This document shows positions 37,328-38,395 of a DNA stretch of 39,895 nucleotides, piece after piece (position 1 is the stretch's first letter; every line of letters starts with the position of its first letter). The stretch covers positions 1 to 39,895 of the forward strand of contig JALSJY010000241.1 in assembly GCA_026989045.1 (NCBI GenBank), written 5' to 3'. Both the position numbers and the translations under genes were made by a program. Source of the stretch: Hyphomicrobiales bacterium. Lineage in GTDB: Bacteria > Pseudomonadota > Alphaproteobacteria > Rhizobiales > Devosiaceae. The notes beneath the pieces are model-generated. The model made no database searches. It was not told the DNA's origin and was given only the letters and a program-made list of their open reading frames with translations.

Positions 37328-37672
37328 ATTGGCCTGCTTTATTAAATTGAACTCCCCACTGCTCAACCCTACTATTTTTTTGGATAATTTTTTCAATTTA
37401 TCCCTCCTAAAATTAAGTATTGATTGAACCTTTACTAATTTCTGCAAATCAAATTCATTTGCAGAAACTTAAGTGTTTCAATCAAATTAGGTGGGAGAGT
37501 GTTTTCTTTATGATGACTTCATGTTTCTTTATGTCAAATTCATGTCAATCTTATGTTAATCTAATGTCCTTTTTGTGATGGCGGGATTGAGGTAAATTTC
37601 TACTTGAGGATCAAAAAGAAAACTAACTTGGAGCAAGCTAGCTAAAAAACCACAGAGCCCTAAAGCCGTATG

Positions 37673-37876
37673 CACTACCGCAGTAAGCTTTATCCTGAAG
37701 GGAAGCCCAAAGAAAGAAAGCTCGTTTTGCGTAAGCCTGCCCAAAGCTCGAAGAGCGTAGGGTGGTGGAGCCAGCATGCGCTTCCGCAGTAATCTTTAGC
37801 TTGCGAGGACGCGCCAAAGAAGGAAGGTCCGTGGCGTAAGCCAGCCGAAGCCGAAGGCGTAGGGTGGTGGAGCCAG
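37673..37876 (-). repeat. Degenerate tandem repeat (period about 102-107 bp) downstream of tRNA-Ala; each unit starts with the tRNA 3' end
   Basis: GCGTAGGGTGGTGGAGCCAG identical at 37755-37774 and 37857-37876; further aligned blocks CCGCAGTAA (37678 and 37784), CCAAAGAA (37707 and 37814), GCGTAAGCC (37729 and 37834). Confidence 0.85.
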
Positions 37877-37940
37877 ACGGGATCGAACCGACGACCTCTT
37901 CGCTGCCAGCGAAGCGCTCTCCCAGCTGAGCTATGGCCCC
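37865..37940 (-). tRNA. tRNA-Ala (anticodon GGC), CCA encoded
   Basis: GGGGCCATAGCTCAGCTGGGAGAGCGCTTCGCTGGCAGCGAAGAGGTCGTCGGTTCGATCCCGTCTGGCTCCACCA, 76 nt, full cloverleaf with loop CTGGCAG. Confidence 0.97.
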
Positions 37941-38011: not shown

Positions 38012-38395
38012 TTATTCGTCTCTAGTATTAGTTGGCACGCCAAGGTCTATTTTGGCATCATCATCATCAACTTCTAAAAATGTGTCTTGCTGATCTGCAT
38101 TAACATCATCATCAACTTCTACTTCAACATCATCAACATCAGGAATATCTTCAACAATATCTTCTTCTGCTTCTTCTAGTGAAATTGTATCTGGATCAAT
38201 TACAATATCATCAGTTTCAACTATTGGTTTAACAACTGGTTCGACTTTTTCTTCTTTAACTTTAGTGGTGGGGGTAGAAGCAATCACAAATTCTTCTCCA
38301 CAACCTGGGCAGATGATAGGATCACGACCAAGATCATAAAATTTCATCTCGCAACTTTGACACTGACGCTTTGTGCCTTTTTCAAAACTTGCCAT
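38012..38395 (-). CDS. TIGR02300 family protein (zinc-ribbon N-terminus, acidic C-terminus)
   Basis: KRQCQSCEMKFYDLGRDPIICPGCGEEF followed by a long Asp/Glu-rich tail. Confidence 0.9.
   Translation of the reverse strand: MASFEKGTKRQCQSCEMKFYDLGRDPIICPGCGEEFVIASTPTTKVKEEKVEPVVKPIVETDDIVIDPDTISLEEAEEDIVEDIPDVDDVEVEVDDDVNADQQDTFLEVDDDDAKIDLGVPTNTRDE

Follow-up and report, generated by a model that had tools for sequence, protein, structure and literature searches.

The DNA analysed here, referred to as the window, is a stretch of 39,895 nucleotides from a Hyphomicrobiales bacterium of the family Devosiaceae. On its minus strand, a gene for an FYDLN_acid protein (38012-38395; Pfam PF09538) is followed by tRNA-Ala(GGC) (37865-37940; ARAGORN and Rfam RF00005, 60.2 bits), by two tandem units, A (102 bp, 37763-37864) and B (37670-37762), and then by an outer-membrane beta-barrel gene. 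An exact 20-nt direct repeat, CTGGCTCCACCACCCTACGC, occupies 37857-37876 and 37755-37774 at a spacing of 102, and by our arithmetic the probability that an exact 20-mer recurs by chance within ~100 bp is negligible. Twelve of its nucleotides are the last 12 of the tRNA (positions 65-76; 37865-37876) and the remaining 8, CCCTACGC, come from the tail; the second copy of the tRNA 3' end, CTGGCTCCACCA, therefore lies at 37763-37774 and closes unit A. Further into the units, a 54-nt repeat (37776-37829 and 37670-37723) is 72% identical at a spacing of 106, and local alignment of A with B using blastn gives ~79% identity over 106 columns (E about 1e-15). A preliminary description of this DNA had reported both the restart of the tRNA end 102 bp downstream and the alignment of the two units, and both observations are borne out. 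Unit B, presumably the older of the two, ends in ...GTGCATACGGCTTTAGGG, where a third copy of the tRNA end is decayed or missing. The sequence CTCCACCACCCTACGC does not occur elsewhere in the genome, even allowing 2 mismatches, and the two units in the window are the only copies in the 2.14-Mb draft assembly. Closer to the beta-barrel gene, and upstream of it, there is a tandem 21-bp repeat (37503-37544) and a 14-bp inverted repeat (37439-37467), which are possibly regulatory.

Both units contain a hairpin built around the CCA of the tRNA end. In unit A this is CCACCC-TAC-GCC-TTC-GGC-TTC-GGCTGG (37841-37867), which starts inside the CCA of the tRNA itself and, set against 42 other tailed tRNAs, forms 5/6 outer pairs. 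The unit B hairpin, CCACCC-TAC-GCTC-TTC-GAGC-TTT-GGGCAGG (37736-37765), evident from the blastn alignment and the MFE structure, has the same design with one bulge. Beyond its hairpin, unit A carries a right half (37776-37829) that is kept in unit B. This right half of ~55 nt is known from this genus only; a search for it in 386 genomes of the class matched nothing but rpsD and other DNA that appears to be coding, which we take as chance at that search size. The junction GCATGCTGGCTCCAC, sought in 398 genomes of the order, gave three matches besides the window's own, in contexts lacking a tRNA or a tail, and these also look like chance. Neither junction pattern was found among the IMG/VR viral contigs.

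The same locus was compared in four congeners and in two alphaproteobacterial metagenome-assembled genomes that were found by pattern, fen_915 (L006) and a member of the Parvularculaceae (L008). Both of the latter contain, in order, the FYDLN_acid gene, tRNA-Ala, a CCCTACGC tail and a gene for a GIY-YIG nuclease. Because the FYDLN_acid neighbour is common to the window, to these two genomes and to the genus relatives, we consider all of them to represent one locus. In the congener G004, the tRNA leads into a CCCTTCGCCCTTCGGGCTTCGGGTGGCTTACGCCA tail, after which a leader of ~100 bp occurs twice and is followed by an intact GIY-YIG gene of 80 aa, and G002 has a unit with the window's right half, then a copy of the tRNA end, TGGCTCCACTA, a second hairpin tail and a broken-off start, MKYVYDLQN, which looks like the first codons of the GIY-YIG gene. 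G003 has just one unit, again with this right half, and its copy of the tRNA is truncated. Conservation of the downstream units in relatives, raised in the preliminary description, is evident for the right half at the locus itself in G002 and G003. The tRNA-Ala of the fourth congener, G001, has no tail, but its contig stops 289 bp later and it was left out as proof of an empty site. The presence of the GIY-YIG gene behind the same tRNA-Ala tail in these relatives indicates that the tail here forms the leading end of such an element. Moreover, the 35 nt at 37740-37774, comprising the tRNA copy and the start of the unit B tail, match the Parvularculaceae element, over its tRNA end and tail, with 97% identity by blastn. 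In G004, a second, C-terminal GIY-YIG fragment directly follows the intact gene, which suggests that elements also stack or recombine there. Elsewhere in the genus, tails are found behind tRNA-Met in G002 and tRNA-Leu in G004.

The association extends well beyond this locus. A pattern combining the tRNA T-arm, CCA and tail matched 47 times in 21 of 190 sampled genomes of the class (including an apparent chance match in G466 and a G502 site that the variable gap counts twice), compared with a single match for the reversed control pattern. With the G004 nuclease as query, the same 190 genomes yielded 22 matches in 19 genomes. In 18 of these, an intact tRNA gene of the same orientation precedes the match by 67-400 bp, and the tRNAs concerned represent 11 amino acids (Pro, Leu, Tyr, Ser, His, Lys, Asp, Gly, Val, Ala and Gln). 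Three others (L047, L048 and L051) follow a tRNA-Ser 3' end that stands alone, and for one match neither is present. The isolated end matches that genome's own tRNA-Ser over 17 nt in G424 and over 14 nt in G585 (compared by eye), and two further isolated TGGCTCCACCACCCTACGC copies are present in a Bryobacterales contig and a Saprospiraceae contig. Tails and the nuclease occur together in 14 genomes (Fisher p 2e-12). A nuclease gene was found within 1 kb of about 9 of the 27 distinct tailed tRNAs looked at; since roughly two thirds have none, the ORF-less copy is the usual one. The suggestion of a tRNA-3'-derived dispersed repeat in the preliminary description was therefore essentially right, related units being found behind many tRNAs and also away from tRNAs together with a tRNA 3' end. 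The link to the GIY-YIG gene and the overlap of the hairpin with the CCA emerged from the relatives and could not be seen by the preliminary description; overall, the earlier interpretation is partly supported.

The associated nuclease is ~80 aa long and belongs to the GIY-YIG superfamily (Pfam PF01541, E 1.6e-18), with the catalytic Tyr, Arg and Glu invariant in 23/23 sequences (alignment columns Y18, R28 and E68). No NCBIfam model naming it was found. This subfamily was not found in the window's own genome, and behind the window units there is no detectable GIY-YIG remnant (best E 0.2). The GIY-YIG genes that this genome does encode are situated elsewhere: C239 has no nearby tRNA and C198 is part of a 635-aa frame. 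The genome also contains a different hairpin repeat, TTTTATGATCTCGCGGTAATTCGCTTTGCTCATACCTCCGATGGGGCGCGGC..., which starts from the very base after CCA (L140-L152) and is present behind tRNA-Arg(CCG), Leu(UAA), Leu(GAG), Leu(CAA), Thr(UGU) and Arg(ACG), with similar hairpin repeats behind Gly(GCC), Met(CAU) and a second Arg(ACG). A similar tail is seen in same-family genomes (L022 and L026).

Across the tails, the hairpin follows a common plan of CCANCC, a TNC internal loop, an inner stem (GC..GC), a second TNC and GGNTGG, in which the tRNA's own CCA provides the outer 5' arm. Covariation is seen between the base following CCA and its partner, in all four Watson-Crick forms: among 43 distinct tails the pair is C-G in 18, G-C in 13, T-A in 8 and A-T in 1, with 3 exceptions. 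All six outer pairs are formed in 23 of the 43, a count to be read with the caveat that the 3' arm was picked as the best-pairing position, which favours matches, although by our arithmetic such a procedure is expected to give a perfect arm in only ~1% of cases. G-U occurs once, and its near-absence suggests that the hairpin is selected as DNA rather than as RNA. In most loci a second hairpin of inverse design precedes the nuclease gene (as read from the sequences, without statistics). This inverted hairpin (..GAA-GC..GC-GTA..) is absent from the right end of both window units, where the genus-specific right half is found instead.

Tandem restarts of the tRNA end are uncommon among tailed tRNAs. 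A downstream copy was detected at 3 of the 42 with enough sequence, namely in the window and at tRNA-Phe and tRNA-Thr of another genome, G541; as a control, 60 untailed tRNAs were scored and the single positive was a duplicated whole tRNA-Ile. The G541 tRNA-Phe (L125) is followed by two tandem units of 102 bp and a third copy with a deletion, and the tRNA-Thr (L137) by one unit of 105 bp, nearly the unit length in the window. The tRNA-end copies in G541 are 19 nt long (tRNA positions 58-76), compared with 12 nt (65-76) in the window. One explanation for such arrays is an old local tandem duplication starting from the tRNA 3' end, by replication slippage or unequal crossing-over and without any mobile element. 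Two tandem units at equal spacing are what this would produce, and the nearly identical G541 pair behind tRNA-Phe looks like a recent local duplication. A purely local event leaves unexplained the same CCA-hairpin tail at many tRNAs, the nuclease association and the isolated copies with tRNA 3' ends, and would still need an origin for the first unit; we regard it as unlikely to account for the window. Copies of tRNA 3' ends from the T-loop onward are also typical of integrase attachment sites, and the units could accordingly be relic att sites, tandem tRNA 3' ends left after the deletion of integrase-type islands for which this tRNA served as attB. The start of the G541 copies at tRNA position 58 fits such an origin, but the small size of the units (only ~100 bp), the conservation of the hairpin and a recurrent cargo consisting of a GIY-YIG gene do not, and we give this possibility very little weight.

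The preliminary description had likened the locus to the E. coli rtT arrays (tyrT/tyrV; rttR small RNA), and in architecture the likeness stands: tandem units behind a tRNA each restart with the tRNA 3' end. In E. coli MG1655, tyrV is followed by three copies with a period of 178 bp and a 19-nt tRNA copy (positions 58-76), such that the rtT copies begin at exactly tRNA position 58, as do those in G541. The likeness does not extend to sequence, where blastn finds only 7-15-nt chance matches between rtT and the window units, nor to the Rfam model, where a scan of the units gave no RtT match up to E 10 and tRNA as the only family above gathering score and the sole credible match, which speaks against an RNA-family explanation. 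The rtT units are longer (178 bp), include 19 nt of tRNA against 12 in the window and lack a CCA hairpin (at most 4/6 pairs). A GAAGGGCGAAGC stretch within them recalls the tail hairpins. The possibility that the window units are co-transcribed with the tRNA and yield a functional small RNA by processing, as proposed for E. coli rtT, is favoured by this shared architecture, by their position immediately behind the tRNA in the same orientation, and by one terminator-like site after unit B (37621-37643), about the number expected by chance. Set against it, the units are not clearly better folded than shuffled sequences (z -0.8 and -1.3), the tRNA-proximal part differs between congeners with only ~55 nt kept, and an outer stem that is Watson-Crick and almost free of G-U fits a DNA palindrome. 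We found nothing in support of the processed RNA that had been suggested, and consider an rtT-like RNA element improbable here.

Taken together, these observations lead us to conclude that the window units are probably ORF-less (decayed or non-autonomous) tandem copies of a mobile element anchored at tRNA 3' ends and associated with a GIY-YIG nuclease. Their assignment to the hairpin-element family is strong. On the same reading, the complete element would consist of a tRNA 3' end, a hairpin that begins within the CCA, a spacer containing an inverted counterpart of this hairpin, and a same-strand gene for the ~80-aa GIY-YIG protein. We infer a transposition mechanism in which the nuclease, encoded by the element or acting in trans, would recognise the CCA-hairpin junction or a bare tRNA end and nick or cut there. 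Repair of the break from an element-bearing copy would then insert a unit directly behind the CCA; the tRNA would stay functional, its 3' end being supplied or preserved by the element, and the displaced old end would be left downstream as the 12-19-nt copy. Repeated rounds would stack units with the newest adjoining the tRNA, such that unit A may have inserted after unit B and displaced it by 102 bp. The window units may be satellites moved in trans or remnants, their nuclease gene having been lost or never present. Against the element reading stand the absence of a detectable GIY-YIG remnant behind the window units and of this subfamily from the genome, a right half that is known from this genus only, and a tRNA copy of 12 nt compared with 19 nt in G541. 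In addition, a tRNA-end copy on the far side is limited to the three loci noted above and is missing from most nuclease-bearing loci; a simple target-duplication model is therefore not sufficient for every locus.

The proposed element has points in common with several known systems. Integrative elements that target tRNA genes likewise sit at the tRNA 3' end, keep the tRNA intact and leave the old end downstream, as proposed here for the tail element. They differ in that the tail element measures only ~100 bp to ~0.5 kb, and no integrase was seen in the flanks read. The element also resembles free-standing homing endonucleases of the GIY-YIG type, for example the Seg enzymes of T4 (PMC2988022; SegB, PMC13096335), in having a small GIY-YIG nuclease, which in the full form of the element lies beside tRNA genes. 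By comparison, the nuclease of the element is only ~80 aa long, shows no separate DNA-binding domain and resides in bacterial genomes, and the element is linked to a CCA hairpin and to many different tRNAs, its window copies having no nuclease. The conserved catalytic Tyr, Arg and Glu of the associated nuclease are consistent with a homing-endonuclease likeness, and site-specific cleavage of an empty allele is a putative activity. REP/BIME palindromes with RAYT transposases (PMC3733652) are also short hairpins with many gene-less copies, some beside an enzyme gene; in contrast, the enzyme of the tail element is a GIY-YIG protein rather than a RAYT tyrosine transposase and the element is anchored at tRNA 3' ends. 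That REP survey does not mention GIY-YIG, and the passages found in the 2006 survey of the GIY-YIG superfamily (PMC1564403) make no mention of a tRNA-gene context. No description of a GIY-YIG/tRNA-end element was found in the open-access literature, and the element is apparently, and provisionally, undescribed.

These findings offer a concrete origin for tRNA-end tandem repeats, which have been a puzzle since rtT, and assign a defined location, at the 3' end of tRNA genes, to a group of anonymous GIY-YIG genes of ~80 aa. From the use of the tRNA CCA as a hairpin arm, predictions about target recognition follow that can be tested, and this design illustrates how an element could take essential genes as a safe site. 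More tentatively, with the balance slightly against so broad a claim, there may be an undescribed and widespread class of minimal bacterial elements which use the tRNA CCA as the hairpin arm for an ~80-aa GIY-YIG nuclease, insert behind almost any tRNA without harm and give rise to ~100-bp gene-less satellites, two of which would be those in the window; rtT-type arrays elsewhere may share this origin.
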